Positions 19,860 to 34,313 of a DNA stretch of 42,941 nt are shown in pieces. Within the stretch, counting starts at the first letter, position 1; each line of letters starts with the position of its first letter. The notes beneath the pieces are model-generated. The model saw only the letters and a list, made by a program, of their open reading frames with translations, was not told where the DNA came from and did no database searches. The DNA lies in IMG/VR virus record IMGVR_UViG_3300032242_001667, positions 1-42,941 of that record; one strand, 5' to 3'. The translations under genes were made by a program, and so were the position numbers. The stretch is from a virus.

Positions 19860-20676
19860 AGTAAATAATAAACCTAAAGTAGTTCTAACAATTCCTGCTG
19901 GTCGTAGGCATTATATGGAAATTCTTTTTAAGCATGTGATGAAAGAATATGATTTATTAGATGAAATTAGATTATGGGTTAATTCTAGCAATTCAAGTGA
20001 CATTATGTGGATGGTTGAGATGAGTCTTACACATGAAAAAGTTACATTAGACAAAACTGTTTCCGATAATCCAACACCCAGAATTACTGATCAGAATTTC
20101 GAATTATACAGATTCTGGGATAATTGTAAAGATGAAAATACACTTTATATCAGACTTGACGATGATGTTGTCTGGCTGGAAGAAAATTTCTTTAAGAATT
20201 TAATTGAATTCAGAATTAATAACCCAGAACCGCTATTTATTTATCCAAATATTATCAATAACTCTGTCACAGACTATATCCATCAGCGTTTAGGATGCTT
20301 CAACTTTGAAAATAAAATTGAGTATAACTGTTTTGATCATTATGGAGTTTTGGATGGAAGTCATGCTGAACTTAGACACAATGAATTTATTAAAGATATC
20401 AAAAATAATGACCTAGATAAGTATAAGTTTGGTAAGTGGTCATTATATAATTATGAAAGAGTGTCTATTAACTCTTTAGCTTGGTTTGGTAAAGATATTA
20501 AAAATCTTGAATTTAAACCAGATGAGGAAGATTATGTTTCTTGTGAAGCCCCAAGAATACTAGAAAGACCAAGTATGATTTATGGTGGACCAATTGCAGT
20601 TCATTTCTCTTTCCATACACAAAGAGAATACCTAGATTCTACTGAAATTTTACAGAAATATGCTGAGTTGTCATAA
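19849..20676 (+). CDS. Glycosyltransferase-like protein with non-canonical start (275 aa)
   Basis: The first ATG (19915) would cut off KPKVVLTIPAGRRHY, which looks like the first strand and nucleotide-binding loop of this GT-A type protein. Reading back to the in-frame stop at 19831, no ATG, GTG, TTG or CTG occurs: the only near-start codons are ATA 19843, ATT 19849 and ATA 19852, just after AAAGGG (19837-19842). I place the start at ATT 19849. The body has YIRLDDDVVW (D-D-D metal site). It overlaps the end of glf by 11 nt. Confidence 0.6.
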   Translation: MINKVNNKPKVVLTIPAGRRHYMEILFKHVMKEYDLLDEIRLWVNSSNSSDIMWMVEMSLTHEKVTLDKTVSDNPTPRITDQNFELYRFWDNCKDENTLYIRLDDDVVWLEENFFKNLIEFRINNPEPLFIYPNIINNSVTDYIHQRLGCFNFENKIEYNCFDHYGVLDGSHAELRHNEFIKDIKNNDLDKYKFGKWSLYNYERVSINSLAWFGKDIKNLEFKPDEEDYVSCEAPRILERPSMIYGGPIAVHFSFHTQREYLDSTEILQKYAELS

Positions 20677-21680
20677 TGAAAAAAATACTAATTACTGGAG
20701 CATCAGGATTTTTAGGAAGTCATGTTATAAGACACCTTCTAATAAATACTGATTGGGAATTAGTATGTTTAATCAACAAGAACCATTCAAGAATACCAAA
20801 AAGGATTGAATTATCAGTAAAAGGTTATGATGAATCTTTTGAGAGAATAAAGTTAATCAGACATAATTTATCAGAAAAAATATCTGAAGATTTATCTAAA
20901 GAAATTGGTAGTATTGACTATGTAATTAATGTAGCTAGTCATAGCAGTGTTAATGAATCAATTGATAATCCAGTATTTTCTATTCAAAATAATGTACTTT
21001 TAATGTGTAATTTGTTAGAATGGGCTAGGAAAAACCCTATTAAAAAATTTATTCAGGTTTCTTCAGATGAGGTTTATGGTCCAGCAGCAGAAGGATATTC
21101 GCATAAAGAATGGATATCTCCATATCTTCCAAGTACTCCTTATTCTGCTGGTAAAGCATCTCAGGAATCAATCTGCTTCGCTTACTGGAGGACATATGGA
21201 ATACCAGTAGTAATTGTTAACACTATGAATTTAATTGGAGAAACAATTACTAAGGATAAGTTTTTTGTTAAAATTATAAATAATATACTTTCAAAGAATA
21301 AGATTCAAATACATGGATCTAAAGATGGTAAAACTGGAGGAAGATATTATATTCATGCTAGAAATCAAGCAGATGCAATTCTTCATATTTTAAGTTTACC
21401 CGCTCCCCTATATGGAGAGTCCGAGAAACCAGCAAAATTTCATGTTGTTGGTGATAAAGAAACAACTAACTTAGAGTTGGTTGAGATAATTTCTAAGTCT
21501 ATGGGTGAGGTTTTTGACTATGAGATTATTGATATTGATTCTGTAAGACCTGGATATGGATTGAGATATTCACTAGACGGGGAAAAACTTATAAATACTG
21601 GATGGAAACCACCAATTTCATTTGAAGAGTCTTTAGATCGTACAATTAAATGGACCTTACAGAATAAAGAATGGTTATAA
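20676..21680 (+). CDS. SDR sugar-nucleotide epimerase/dehydratase, copy 1
   Basis: 334 aa. Rossmann GASGFLGSH, VSSDEVYG with D-E after the catalytic Ser, and Y-x3-K in PYSAGKAS: extended short-chain dehydrogenase family, close to dTDP-glucose 4,6-dehydratase/UDP-sugar epimerases. It acts on an NDP-sugar with NAD. About half identical by eye to the next gene, but with AGA-rich, AT-rich codons and some replaced residues (SHSSVNES where copy 2 has SESHVDRS). TAATG start. Confidence 0.85.
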   Translation: MKKILITGASGFLGSHVIRHLLINTDWELVCLINKNHSRIPKRIELSVKGYDESFERIKLIRHNLSEKISEDLSKEIGSIDYVINVASHSSVNESIDNPVFSIQNNVLLMCNLLEWARKNPIKKFIQVSSDEVYGPAAEGYSHKEWISPYLPSTPYSAGKASQESICFAYWRTYGIPVVIVNTMNLIGETITKDKFFVKIINNILSKNKIQIHGSKDGKTGGRYYIHARNQADAILHILSLPAPLYGESEKPAKFHVVGDKETTNLELVEIISKSMGEVFDYEIIDIDSVRPGYGLRYSLDGEKLINTGWKPPISFEESLDRTIKWTLQNKEWL

Positions 21681-21705
21681 AAAACTATCATTATAAAAAA
21701 ACATT

Positions 21706-21714
21706 TGCTATAAT
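21706..21714 (+). promoter_or_regulatory. Extended -10 promoter (TGC TATAAT)
   Basis: TGCTATAAT at 21706-21714 between the two SDR copies, followed by AAGGAG before ATG 21739. It separates expression of copy 2 from copy 1. Confidence 0.6.
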
Positions 21715-21738
21715 GAATACACTAAACAAGGAGATAAA

Positions 21739-22749
21739 ATGAAAAGAGTATTACTCACTGGAGCTTCGGGCTTTGTAGGTAGTCATGTGCTACGACATAT
21801 TTTAATAAATACGGATTGGCAAGTAGTTTGTCCAACCACATTTACTCACAAAGGTATTACAGATAGAATTCGTGTTGCTTGTGAAGGTATTGAAGATGCC
21901 TACAAGCGTGTTAAGGTTATTCGTTGTGACTTTACTGCACCAATTTCGGTAGTAACAGCACACGAGTTTGGCAAGATTGACTATGTAATTAACGTAGCTT
22001 CCGAGAGCCATGTAGATCGCAGTATCGAATACCCTGCACCATTTATTATTAATAATGTATCTTTGATTTGTCACCTGCTTGATTGGGCTAGAATTGCACA
22101 GCCAGAAAAATTTCTTCAGGTTTCCACAGATGAAGTTTATGGTCCAGCACCAGCAGGTTATGCACATCGTGAGTGGGTTGACCAGCATTTCCCAAGTAAT
22201 CCATATTCTGCATCAAAAGCTGCACAAGAAGATATTGCGTTCTCTTATTGGCGAACATACGGAATTCCGTTGGCTATTACTAACACTATGAACATTATTG
22301 GCGAAACGCAGGACACAGAAAAATTTATGCCAATGACAATTAAGCGTGTGTTAAATGGAGAATTGATGAAAATTCATGCATCTCCAACAGGAGAAATTGG
22401 AAGTCGCTTTTATCTTCATGCTCGTAATCAGGCAGATGGATTGCTTCATGTTCTTAATCAGGATTTCCCACTTTATGGTGAAGCAGATACTCCAGAAAGA
22501 TTCCACATTGTTGGTGAGCGTGAAGTAGACAATCTTGAGATGGCTCAAATGATTGCAGATGCGGTTGGCAAGCCATTGAACTATGAACTAGAAGATTTTC
22601 ATTCATCTCGCCCAGGACACGATTTGCGCTATGCACTTGACGGAACTAAGATCACAGATACTGGTTGGCAATTGCCAATTCCATTGCAGGAATCAATTCA
22701 ACGTACAGTAGAGTGGACACTAGCACACCCAGAATGGTTGAAGCTTTAA
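21739..22749 (+). CDS. SDR sugar-nucleotide epimerase/dehydratase, copy 2
   Basis: 336 aa. GASGFVGSH, VSTDEVYG (T-D-E as in RmlB-type dehydratases), Y-x3-K in PYSASKAA, and SESHVDRS. All key residues of the extended SDR are intact. It has its own promoter, a strong AAGGAG site and many CGT codons, unlike copy 1, which suggests strong expression or a separate origin. It likely makes the activated sugar used by the island's transferases. Confidence 0.87.
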   Translation: MKRVLLTGASGFVGSHVLRHILINTDWQVVCPTTFTHKGITDRIRVACEGIEDAYKRVKVIRCDFTAPISVVTAHEFGKIDYVINVASESHVDRSIEYPAPFIINNVSLICHLLDWARIAQPEKFLQVSTDEVYGPAPAGYAHREWVDQHFPSNPYSASKAAQEDIAFSYWRTYGIPLAITNTMNIIGETQDTEKFMPMTIKRVLNGELMKIHASPTGEIGSRFYLHARNQADGLLHVLNQDFPLYGEADTPERFHIVGEREVDNLEMAQMIADAVGKPLNYELEDFHSSRPGHDLRYALDGTKITDTGWQLPIPLQESIQRTVEWTLAHPEWLKL

Positions 22750-28273: not shown

Positions 28274-28723
28274 ATGGATGATTTAGCCCTCTTACTTAGA
28301 AAAGCACAAGCGAATGCATTTCAAATGTATTCTCAAACACATGGATATCACTGGAATGTGGTAGGTCCACATTTTAAACAATTCCACGCATTTTTTCTTG
28401 AGATTTATGAAGATGTATTTGACTCTATTGATCTTTATGCAGAGATGCAACGTAAAATTGGCAAATATGCCCCATTTGGTGCAGTAAATATGGCAAGATT
28501 ATCTGATGTTGAAATTAATGACACATTAGATTTAAAGCCATTTGATATGCTAAATGAATTGTACAAAACTAATCAAACTGTTTTAGACAGTTTAGTCAGT
28601 CTTTTTAATAAAGCAAATGAATTAAACGAGCAGGGAATCTGCAATGATGTTGCAGCCCGAATATCACAACATCAATTTTGGGCTTGGCAATTAAAAGCAT
28701 CTTTTGAGTGGGGCTGGGGATAG
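28274..28723 (+). CDS. Dps-like ferritin-fold protein
   Basis: 149 aa. H26-W-N-V-x-G31-P-H33-F and H38 with E46 and D50 match the Dps intersubunit ferroxidase signature (H-W-N-V-x-G, then H...D/E). Dps cages bind DNA and oxidise iron with peroxide, protecting DNA. Predicted leaderless transcript. A phage copy could protect packaging DNA or the host from oxidative damage during infection. Confidence 0.85.
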   Translation: MDDLALLLRKAQANAFQMYSQTHGYHWNVVGPHFKQFHAFFLEIYEDVFDSIDLYAEMQRKIGKYAPFGAVNMARLSDVEINDTLDLKPFDMLNELYKTNQTVLDSLVSLFNKANELNEQGICNDVAARISQHQFWAWQLKASFEWGWG

Positions 28724-30342: not shown

Positions 30343-30861
30343 ATGAATATAAAAAAAGCAACAGTAGGAACAGTTGGAGCAATTGCAATTCTTGCAGGAG
30401 TTACATTTAGTACCGCACAAAACGGAGAAAAGGTATACTTGCCAAATCACATATTTACTCCAGGATCTGTAAATCCTGATGTAACACAGGCAAATATTCA
30501 ATCAACTATCTGTGTGTCAAACTGGACTTCTACAATACGACCATCATCTTCATATACAACTAATTTAAAATTAGAACAACTTGCAAATGAATATAAAACT
30601 TATGCAAAAGAAGTAGGCACATCAGACCCATCAGCATATGAAGAAGATCATTTAATTTCTTTAGAATTGGGTGGTAATCCAACAGACCCTAAAAATCTAT
30701 GGGCTGAACCTTGGAATGGTACATATGGTGCTCATGCTAAAGATAGGGTAGAAAATGCTCTTCATAAGTTAGTTTGTTCTAATCAAATTAGTTTGTCAGA
30801 TGCACAATTTGCAATTTTTGCTAACTGGTACACAGCATACATCAAATATGTAACGCCTTGA
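30343..30861 (+). CDS. Exported HNH-like nuclease (172 aa)
   Basis: I start at ATG 30343 (GAAAGGAA 6 nt upstream); an upstream ATG at 30328 lacks a site. Signal peptide with VGTVGAIAILAGVTFSTAQ and likely cleavage near residue 25. Core YEEDHLISLELGG with D102-H103, then PKNLWAEPW with N118: the D-H...N-L-W pattern of secreted HNH-type nucleases (DHLVPLELGG...NLWPEP). Would act outside the membrane, for example on infecting or lysed-cell DNA. Confidence 0.75.
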   Translation: MNIKKATVGTVGAIAILAGVTFSTAQNGEKVYLPNHIFTPGSVNPDVTQANIQSTICVSNWTSTIRPSSSYTTNLKLEQLANEYKTYAKEVGTSDPSAYEEDHLISLELGGNPTDPKNLWAEPWNGTYGAHAKDRVENALHKLVCSNQISLSDAQFAIFANWYTAYIKYVTP

Positions 30862-31179: not shown

Positions 31180-32303
31180 GAATAGGTTTTATCAGTTCCG
31201 ACTGGGCTGATTTTAATGTTGGTTCTCCAGGTGGTTGTACTTGGATTAGATGTATGTCGGTTGCCAATTATTTAAATACAGTTGGGCACGAAGCAGTATG
31301 TGGAGAAATTGGATGGAAGGAAGGCGAAGGTTTTGTAGTAGCACCAACAGTTTTAAGACTACAACAAAATAATCGTAATCCAATTTTAAATCCAGAAGGA
31401 GCTTTTGACAAACTAGATGTTGTTGTTATCAAATTATTTATGTGGGAAAATGCAAAAGAGACAATCGAACAGGCTAGAAAATTTGGTCAGGTTGTAATTA
31501 TTGATGTTGATGATTGGTTCTTGGGTCTCCCCCAAACAAACATTGCTTTTGAAACTACCCATCCAAAAAATAGTTCTGTTTGGAATCGTGACCATATGCA
31601 CACTTCTTACAGTGCCGCAGATGCCCTGATTCATAGTACAGAATTTCTTGCAAATAATTATGGTAAGTATAACTCAAATAATTATATTGTTAGAAACTCC
31701 GTAGACCCAAGTTTATTTGTAAAAAGATTTGATAATGCTGGAGACAAGCCAATTATTGGTTGGGTTGGAATCATGTTATGGAGACAACATGATGTTGAAA
31801 CATTAAAGGGAATACTTGGTCCATTCTTAGAAAAACATGACTTAATGTTTCATCACGCAGGAATGTTGATGGATAGACCAAAACAATTTGCAGAATTAAC
31901 AAAAATGGATCCTGAAAGATTAATTGAAGTAACAGGAACTAATGTTTGGAACTATGGAAATATTTTATTGCCAATGGATGTTGGACTTGTCCCATTAGAT
32001 ATGATTCCGTTTAATGAAGCAAAGTCAAGTCTTAAGGGGATTGAATATGCTATGTCTGGTATCCCATTTATTGCATCTGGAACAAAAGAATATAAATTAC
32101 TTAATCAAGACGGAGCAGGAAGAATTGCTAATAAGCCAGCAGAATGGATTAAACACCTAGAAGCCTACCTTGATCCCGCCACAAGAAAGGCGGAAGCACA
32201 AAAAGGTTATGAAGTTGTTATGGAAAAATACAATCTTCAAACTAAGATACATGAGTGGTCAGACACAATTATTGAAATTTATAAGAAAGCTAAAGGGTTA
32301 TGA
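31176..32303 (+). CDS. Glycosyltransferase, GT4-like (375 aa)
   Basis: GTG start in a GTGA overlap. N-terminal IGFISSDWADFN and GGCTWIRCMSVANYL, C-terminal VPLDMIPFNEAKSSLKGIEY followed by A-M-S-G-I-P-F-I-A-S-G-T. This second-domain pattern (E-A/G...E-x2-A/G-x-G-x-P) is that of GT-B, family 4-like transferases. It lies outside the main sugar island and may add a further sugar to the same glycan. Confidence 0.78.
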   Translation: MRIGFISSDWADFNVGSPGGCTWIRCMSVANYLNTVGHEAVCGEIGWKEGEGFVVAPTVLRLQQNNRNPILNPEGAFDKLDVVVIKLFMWENAKETIEQARKFGQVVIIDVDDWFLGLPQTNIAFETTHPKNSSVWNRDHMHTSYSAADALIHSTEFLANNYGKYNSNNYIVRNSVDPSLFVKRFDNAGDKPIIGWVGIMLWRQHDVETLKGILGPFLEKHDLMFHHAGMLMDRPKQFAELTKMDPERLIEVTGTNVWNYGNILLPMDVGLVPLDMIPFNEAKSSLKGIEYAMSGIPFIASGTKEYKLLNQDGAGRIANKPAEWIKHLEAYLDPATRKAEAQKGYEVVMEKYNLQTKIHEWSDTIIEIYKKAKGL

Positions 32304-32440
32304 AAAACTGGATTGATCCAGAAGATGAAATAATTCGGGGTAGAAGAAAAAAGGTTGAGCCTAAGCCTAAACCCAAAAAGGCTAACCATAAGCATGAATA
32401 TATTGACAATTCATGCACTAAATGTGGTAAAATTAAATAA
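32300..32440 (+). CDS. Small Lys/Pro-rich zinc protein (46 aa)
   Basis: ATGA overlap with the transferase. Basic Lys-Pro repeat (VEPKPKPKKANHKHEY) then C-T-K-C near the end: a tiny nucleic-acid-binding-like protein. Its stop codon ends exactly one base before the tmRNA starts, and the tmRNA promoter lies in its 3' half. Confidence 0.55.
   Translation: MKNWIDPEDEIIRGRRKKVEPKPKPKKANHKHEYIDNSCTKCGKIK
32403..32433 (+). promoter_or_regulatory. tmRNA promoter TTGACA-19-TGG TAAAAT
   Basis: TTGACA (32403-32408) and TAAAAT (32428-32433) with TGG extension lie inside the small gene before the tmRNA. The usual 7-nt gap places the start at G32441, the predicted mature 5' end of the tmRNA. Confidence 0.65.
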
Positions 32441-32674
32441 GGGGATGAACAGTTTCGATTGTATGCAGACTCTTATACATCAGTAAAATAAAATAAAAAT
32501 AAACGGCGTATCTCAAAATACCCTCGCTCTGGCTGCTTAAGCCACAAGCCGACTCGCAATTAGTTGGGAACAGAAATTTGCATAAAAATAAAGTAATAAA
32601 ACTCTAGACAAAAATACTGTAATAATGTATAATTGAAAACATATAAGACGGCGGTGCAAATCCGCCCATCTCCA
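32441..32674 (+). ncRNA. ssrA: Compact tmRNA (trans-translation RNA), 234 nt
   Basis: tRNA-like domain: acceptor GGGGATG (32441-32447) with CATCTCC (32667-32673, one G-U), T arm GGCGG-TGCAAAT-CCGCC (32650-32666), discriminator A, no CCA. Helix H2: TTGTATG/CATATAA (7 bp) and TTATACAT/ATGTATAA (8 bp). Open tag frame 32502-32540 reads NGVSQNTLALAA then TAA, ending in the ALAA-type degradation signal of SsrA tags; the TAA lies in a GGCT/AGCC hairpin. A second hairpin (CCGACT/AGTTGG) can form a pseudoknot with TTGC downstream. No PK1 is seen before the tag, so this is shorter than the usual ~350-nt tmRNA. Confidence 0.88.
32605..32633 (+). promoter_or_regulatory. Possible promoter inside the tmRNA 3' half (TAGACA-17-TATAAT)
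   Basis: TAGACA 32605-32610 and TATAAT 32628-32633. The -10 overlaps the H2 helix strand, so it may be accidental. If real, it would express the gene at 32688. Confidence 0.35.
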
Positions 32675-32687
32675 CAAAGGATAAAAA

Positions 32688-32963
32688 ATGAGTTATAGTG
32701 AAAATAAATGGTCGCAACTTGGGCATGAGTATGCCAATAAAACAAAAACGGGAACTACTTATGGAGACATTCAGAGTAAAGCCCACAAGTATACAACTTC
32801 AGAACAGTTTGTAAAAGCATATGCAGAAGCATTTTTGAACTATTTGGATAAGCGTTTTGGCAAAAATAATGCAATTCATATTGTAGACATTACTGCTGAA
32901 CATGAAACATTTGCAGAGGCTTTTGTTCAGTTTGTTGAATTAATTGAAAAGTTGGAAAAGTAA
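32688..32963 (+). CDS. Hypothetical protein (91 aa)
   Basis: ACAAAGGAT directly abuts the tmRNA 3' end and lies 6-8 nt before ATG 32688. Mostly helical and Lys/Glu/Ala-rich (FVKAYAEAFLNYLDKRF, ETFAEAFVQFVELIEKL). No family recognised. Confidence 0.65.
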   Translation: MSYSENKWSQLGHEYANKTKTGTTYGDIQSKAHKYTTSEQFVKAYAEAFLNYLDKRFGKNNAIHIVDITAEHETFAEAFVQFVELIEKLEK

Positions 32964-33702: not shown

Positions 33703-33903
33703 TTGGCAAGTCCATCACAAACTCCATCTTGGAATCGTAATACACCATGCCCATGTAAAGGTTGTACGGTTGCCCGACAAAATGAGCGGGAACAGATAAT
33801 CTACAATCTTGAGCAATATAAAGATTTAAACGATGTAGGAATACAAACAATTAATTATGCCTATGAACAAGTTATTAAAATGTTGAAAGAGAATAAATTA
33901 TGA
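33703..33903 (+). CDS. Zinc-knuckle small protein, TTG start (66 aa)
   Basis: TTG 33703 preceded by TAGGAG. Opening with TPCPCKGCTVARQNERE: C-x-C-x2-C, then a helical coiled tail (REQIIYNLEQYKDL, YAYEQVIKMLKENK). Overlaps the HAD gene (ATGA). Function unknown. Confidence 0.65.
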   Translation: MASPSQTPSWNRNTPCPCKGCTVARQNEREQIIYNLEQYKDLNDVGIQTINYAYEQVIKMLKENKL

Positions 33904-34313
33904 AAAGTAAAGCAATTATTGTAGATATTGATGGAACAGTATCTACAAGAACCAACAGAACCCCATTTGACTACTCTAAGGTATTAGATGATGCTCCTAA
34001 AAATGATGTAATTAATGTTATTTCATCAATGTGGATGGCGGGATTTAGATTAATTTTTGTATCTGCCCGTGATGATTCCTGCTTTGATGATACATATGAA
34101 TGGCTTTGTAAGTATTGTCCCCCATTTGTTAAATTAATTATGCGTAAATCTGGTGATACCAGAGAAGATGGTGTAGTTAAAAGAGAAATCTACGAGAACC
34201 AGATTAAACAAGATTATGATGTTGTAGCCGTATTTGACGATAGACAGCGTGTTGTAGACATGTGGAGATCAATTGGACTAACTTGCTTACAGGTAGATTA
34301 TGGAGATTTTTAA
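33900..34313 (+). CDS. HAD phosphatase, polynucleotide 3'-phosphatase-like (137 aa)
   Basis: IIVDIDGTVSTR (D-x-D nucleophile), LIFVSARDD, and VVAVFDDRQRVVDMW: the motif order of the T4 polynucleotide kinase phosphatase domain in a stand-alone protein. It would remove 3'-phosphates from nucleic acid ends. No kinase or RNA ligase is next to it, so the link to RNA or DNA end healing is inference. Confidence 0.78.
   Translation: MKSKAIIVDIDGTVSTRTNRTPFDYSKVLDDAPKNDVINVISSMWMAGFRLIFVSARDDSCFDDTYEWLCKYCPPFVKLIMRKSGDTREDGVVKREIYENQIKQDYDVVAVFDDRQRVVDMWRSIGLTCLQVDYGDF

Follow-up and report, generated by a model that had tools for sequence, protein, structure and literature searches.

A compact phage-encoded tmRNA whose 3′ H2 DNA is probably also the promoter of the next gene

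The DNA analysed here (the window) is the IMG/VR virus record IMGVR_UViG_3300032242_001667, 42,941 bases in length. A compact one-piece tmRNA gene (ssrA) of 234 nt lies on its plus strand at 32441–32674, with G1 at 32441 and the discriminator A (A73) at 32674, exactly where the original prediction had placed it (Table 1). A permuted tmRNA was rejected for this locus (20.4 bits, E = 0.036). The 5′ end of the gene directly abuts the stop codon of a 46-aa ORF, for which no Pfam match was found; the 91-aa ORF downstream matched neither Pfam nor PHROG. Neither the tmRNA gene nor any of the window's four tRNA genes encodes CCA. Near the tmRNA, at 33900–34313, a protein is encoded that matches the PNKP phosphatase domain of polynucleotide kinase in Pfam (E = 1e-47) and may act in RNA-end repair; genes for RNA ligase and polynucleotide kinase also occur in the Streptomyces phage Wakanda. 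Elsewhere, the window contains two adjacent nucleotide-sugar epimerase genes (20676–22749), both phrog_540 and probably a duplication, and a ferritin-like protein (28274–28723; Pfam PF00210).

Table 1. Features of the tmRNA locus and its flanking genes, in window coordinates.
Feature	Position (strand)	Remarks
46-aa ORF, H-x-H / C-x2-C motif	32300..32440 (+)	Conserved directly upstream in L004, L172, L174
Acceptor stem, 5′ strand GGGGATG	32441..32447 (+)	Pairs with 32667–32673 CATCTCC, 7 bp, G3–U70 wobble
Outer H2, 5′ strand	32459..32465 (+)	7 bp with 32640–32646; two-sided changes at 7/7 pairs
Inner H2, 5′ strand	32473..32485 (+)	8 bp plus CAGTA (4–5 bp); partners 32615–32619, 32625–32632
A-rich single strand in place of PK1	32486..32504 (+)	Ends AAUAAAC directly before the resume codon
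Tag frame	32505..32540 (+)	GGC GTA TCT CAA AAT ACC CTC GCT CTG GCT GCT TAA = GVSQNTLALAA*
P5 hairpin, stop codon in loop	32526..32549 (+)	Two-sided changes, G-C to A-U among them
Single hairpin replacing PK2–PK4	32555..32580 (+)	Loop motif GGAACAGAA; two pairs with two-sided changes
Promoter-like element TAGACA-17-TATAAT	32605..32633 (+)	11/12; inside tmRNA gene, 55 nt upstream of next ORF
T arm GGCGG-TGCAAAT-CCGCC	32650..32666 (+)	5 bp; three pairs with two-sided changes
91-aa ORF (MSYSENKW...)	32688..32963 (+)	Likely first gene served by embedded promoter

The acceptor, the T arm and the two-part H2 all form as predicted and are kept in the relatives described below. The G3–U70 wobble of the acceptor is invariant in all 13 aligned sequences; this pair confers alanine identity on tRNA-Ala and tmRNA. 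H2 was modelled as 19 pairs in three helices, one inner pair of which is missing in the related locus L004. The predicted absence of PK1 ahead of the tag was confirmed, its place being taken by a single strand. Upstream of the resume codon, which is fixed as GGC, the resume signal consists of UA at −5/−4 and an AUAA tetramer; tmRNAs are known to prefer AUAG or AUAA there (PMC4236655). The frame ending in LALAA-TAA, said to lie within a hairpin, is present and has its stop codon in the loop of P5. The ~65 nt that separate P5 from the 3′ strand of H2 hold one covarying hairpin instead of PK2–PK4; these pseudoknots, like PK1, are typical of tmRNA, not defining. The loop motif GGAACAGAA of this hairpin is common to the Streptomyces phage tmRNAs L146–L153 (GGMACAGAA).

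The Rfam tmRNA model RF00023 matched the locus end to end at 32441–32677 with 43.0 bits; its E-value is 6.9e-16 when 501 bases are searched and 1.4e-17 across the entire record. The model match proposed as a check on the prediction is thus significant, but its score falls 4 bits under the curated cut-off of 47 bits. ARAGORN makes no call on the window tmRNA, and together with the score this means that standard annotation would miss it. Relatives are picked up by both programs; RF00023 scores are 44.8 bits for L001, 36.4 for L004, 65.6–69.2 for the orthologues L008–L011 (tmRNAs of ~247 nt, over the cut-off) and 50.5–95.7 for the Streptomyces phages. Because the smallest members escape annotation pipelines, genes of this kind are probably under-counted. 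Folding of the window RNA strand beats that of 200/200 shuffles (z = −2.9).

Related loci were found in IMG/VR by an exact 3′-end pattern, the tag pattern and a neighbouring protein. Two candidates were rejected: in L005 the 5′ pattern matched by chance within a terminase-like gene, and in L177 the tag pattern matched but the tmRNA model did not. L001 and L004 share the neighbours of the window, with the 46-aa ORF upstream and an MSY-type ORF downstream, and L172 and L174 have the 46-aa ORF plus a related downstream ORF. A search of the locus DNA against cultured phages gave no match. None of 84,980 bacterial and archaeal species genomes contained the exact tmRNA 3′ end, and no host was found either in this way or via the phage epimerase.

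A covariance model (R2) built without the window group (window, L001, L004, L172 and L174) finds the window tmRNA with 178.8 bits (E = 1.5e-47). In an alignment of 13 sequences, which was fitted to the model and is hence biased towards the structure, 98.4% of pair cells hold standard pairs and 25 of the 49 base pairs show two-sided changes. These include the H2 covariation sought in relatives, at 13 of the 19 modelled pairs, and three acceptor pairs, changed in L176. Shuffled controls gave 8.1 ± 1.8 two-sided pairs, with 0/500 reaching 25, and sliding the partners gave at most 5. An unfitted alignment of fewer sequences (A1) showed a similar picture, with 8 such pairs, a number reached by 4/500 shuffles. 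As judged from these alignments, the covariation of the tmRNA pairs excludes chance. Broken pairing of the tRNA-like domain in related phages, which would have spoken against a tmRNA, was not seen: its pairs all form.

The tag is likewise maintained. GVSQNTLALAA is identical in L004, L172 and L174, as called by ARAGORN for the latter two, and L001 carries a Q to K change. ARAGORN tags of other relatives are GATQNALALAA (L008–L011), GTTQNALALAA and GVTQNALALAA. The codons vary synonymously (CTG/TTA, GCT/GCA, AAT/AAC), while the final five residues are constant. Apart from this short tag, no conserved protein frame runs through the region in the relatives. Minus-strand ORFs of 60–61 aa do overlap the 3′ part of the tmRNA, as would be expected if the tmRNA match were incidental and one strand or the other were protein-coding, but L001, L004 and L008 each interrupt the frames at another position; protein coding was rejected, with next to no probability left to it. 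We also considered whether a tmRNA that formerly worked is now decaying and growing shorter in the absence of selection. Such decay would agree with the stepwise loss of PK2–4 and PK1 and with the mismatches of the window copy, one U–U in the hairpin and one C–A in P5. It is very improbable given that nearly all cells still pair, that so many pairs have changed on both sides, and that the tag has been retained unaltered in three relatives. The comparative data confirm the window locus as a compact, phage-encoded one-piece tmRNA.

The DNA polymerase, helicase and terminase of the window are 55%, 63% and 67% identical, over 97–100% of the query, to their nearest matches, which belong to Stanwilliamsviridae or other Streptomyces phages of cluster-BE type. 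By these proteins, the freshwater phage belongs with the Streptomyces cluster-BE/Stanwilliamsviridae-type phages. RF00023 matches above its cut-off in 8/8 such phages; an orthologous tmRNA is annotated in Lululemon (267 nt), Wakanda (280 nt) and BillNye (296 nt), and one tmRNA per phage was described for BE1 phages (PMC5764925). BillNye, Wakanda and some of the freshwater relatives have a tRNA-Arg gene nearby, upstream of the tmRNA. Across this phage lineage compact tmRNAs are the norm, and the window tmRNA is a new, smaller variant in an already annotated group, not new in kind. The original prediction was right about a compact, phage-encoded tmRNA with an LALAA tag; it overlooked that the compactness is lineage-wide, with annotated Streptomyces relatives, and that the 3′ part holds a conserved promoter.

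Two of the Streptomyces phages showed peculiarities of their own. In TunaTartare (L153, NC_070784.1, 80158–80936), a tmRNA gene unannotated in the record is interrupted, just after the hairpin replacing PK2–4, by an ORF annotated as endonuclease VII (80340–80837); possible readings are an insertion of homing type and a tmRNA that harbours a nested gene. In BillNye (L151, NC_042105.1, 75347–75642), ARAGORN reports a 20-aa tag ending in YALVTV, not ALAA, which differs from the other Streptomyces phages checked.

The lineage forms a natural size series. In the Streptomyces phages, PK1 is recognisable by eye and the tmRNA measures about 267–300 nt (267–297 nt in the seven uninterrupted genes). In freshwater relatives (L008–L011, L083, L135, L173, L175 and L176), PK1 is a hairpin of ~5 bp and the tmRNA measures about 247–260 nt. 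In the window group PK1 is gone and the length falls to 231–237 nt; measured against the PK1-derived hairpin of L008–L011, the window has a deletion of 16 nt. These are the smallest tag-bearing tmRNAs found in this analysis, which bears out the predicted unusual compactness. Outside the lineage, the shortest one-piece tmRNA called by ARAGORN has 268 nt (L093, 27–294, minus strand); this short phage tmRNA carries the tag AKTTSFALAA and apparently represents another lineage. The series suggests that the lineage lost PK2–4 first and PK1 afterwards, and it reveals which tmRNA parts are kept when space is short: the tRNA-like domain, H2, the resume signal, the tag and P5 are kept, and PK1 and PK2–4 are lost. 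This pattern fits deletion work on E. coli tmRNA, which works with PK1 replaced by a hairpin or a single strand (PMC4236655). Since PK1 is dispensable there, its loss is no argument against function.

A promoter scan, with hexamers scored out of 12, revealed the embedded promoter-like element. At the matching place, 12 of the 13 family members score 10–11 and 8/8 Streptomyces phages score 9–11, counts that come from related sequences and so do not represent independent cases. The −35 hexamer of the window family is TAGACA, not TTGACA; the Streptomyces phages have TTGACA (TGGACA in BillNye) combined with TATATT, TATGCT, TACTGT or similar. The exceptional family member, L176, has no promoter and a tRNA gene directly after the tmRNA. 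Without it, 11 of the 12 hexamer columns are invariant, against a mean of two letters per spacer column. R2 suggested a further stem enclosing the PK2–4 hairpin, but this stem fails in the window group and therefore does not explain the conservation of TAGACA.

The position of the element was also informative. Seven of the eight plus-strand sites of the window scoring at least 11, the tmRNA site included, are no more than 70 nt away from a gene start, with gene starts chosen by us from the ORF list (background 12.9% of positions; binomial P = 4e-6). In the annotated DNA of Wakanda, five of six strong promoters lie equally close, within 70 nt (background 22%, P = 0.003); its tmRNA promoter is among the five and likewise stands 55 nt before the next gene. 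These observations suggest that the embedded promoter probably starts the next transcript, serving the downstream gene.

The promoter could instead be a chance by-product of the sequence needs of the RNA, unused for transcription. The −10 hexamer does sit within paired H2 sequence, and GAC belongs to the general tmRNA consensus at that place. However, the −35 hexamer is invariant although it lies outside the modelled H2 pairs, the Streptomyces phages retain the hexamers with different letters, and L176, with a tRNA next, forms H2 from different letters and lacks the promoter. Moreover, 20 other phage tmRNAs score 7–8, the level of shuffled sequence, and we regard a chance origin as rather doubtful. 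We favour, with some reserve, a reading in which one stretch of DNA has two conserved jobs, as the 3′ strand of tmRNA H2 and, with the bases preceding it, as a sigma-70-type promoter of the next unit. The rescue RNA and the downstream gene would thereby be locked together, and the RNA would have shrunk around this constraint to ~231–237 nt. If the embedded promoter is real, the tmRNA genes of these phages are also regulatory sites. The literature searched yielded no paper on such an element, which is not proof of novelty.

As for the RNA itself, the fold, the tag frame and the G3–U70 pair are held across the relatives, and ordinary trans-translation during infection is the best-supported and likeliest role. 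No SmpB gene was found in the 11 virus records searched, some of which are fragments, so the host would supply this protein. The same absence, with the strong reduction of the window RNA, would also agree with a decoy whose tRNA-like domain sequesters host SmpB and blocks trans-translation in the host. This role has been proposed for mycobacteriophage DS6A, whose tmRNA is reported to be domain-only; inhibition of tmRNA by a similar molecule has also been described (PMC4131195, PMC11915505). A decoy would have no need of the tag frame, the resume signal or P5, which are conserved here by synonymous and compensatory changes; because the tag is conserved, this role is disfavoured and appears quite improbable.

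For trans-translation, the following course can be proposed. Since the 46-aa ORF, stop codon included, runs right up to the tmRNA, the latter would have to be cut from a longer transcript. Read-through from an upstream promoter, for which TTGATA-17-TATAAT at 30858 is the best candidate, would deliver the glycosyltransferase gene, the 46-aa gene and then the tmRNA. Host RNase P would cut at 32441, and the RNA would be trimmed, receive CCA, be charged with alanine via G3–U70 and be bound by host SmpB and EF-Tu. It would then enter stalled ribosomes and switch them to the GGC codon at 32505, and broken proteins would end in (A)GVSQNTLALAA, a ClpXP-type tail. Taken as a whole, the sequence evidence makes us highly confident in a working minimal actinophage tmRNA, the 3′ H2 DNA of which is probably also the promoter of the next gene.

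Compared with bacterial one-piece tmRNA (RF00023), the window RNA has the same acceptor with G3–U70, T arm, UUCGA segment and H2, the same AUAA before the resume codon, an ALAA-ending tag and a stop codon in P5. It differs in its length of 234 nt, the lack of PK1, the one hairpin in place of PK2–4 and the unencoded CCA. The tmRNA of Cluster C mycobacteriophages (Bxz1 and relatives), listed in PMC4131195, is likewise an actinophage tmRNA. Mycobacteriophage DS6A also has a reduced tmRNA relative, but this holds little beyond the tRNA-like domain and no tag, whereas the window tmRNA keeps tag, P5 and H2. By polymerase, helicase and terminase, the Streptomyces cluster BE/Stanwilliamsviridae phages are of the same lineage as the window phage; their tmRNAs are also one-piece, carry the GGMACAGAA hairpin for PK2–4 and a promoter at the matching place, and in several cases have a tRNA-Arg nearby upstream. 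Unlike the window tmRNA, they retain PK1 (by eye); they exceed its length by 33 to 66 nt, and in most of them the tag starts with alanine (ANS...FALAA) rather than with the glycine of GVSQNTLALAA.
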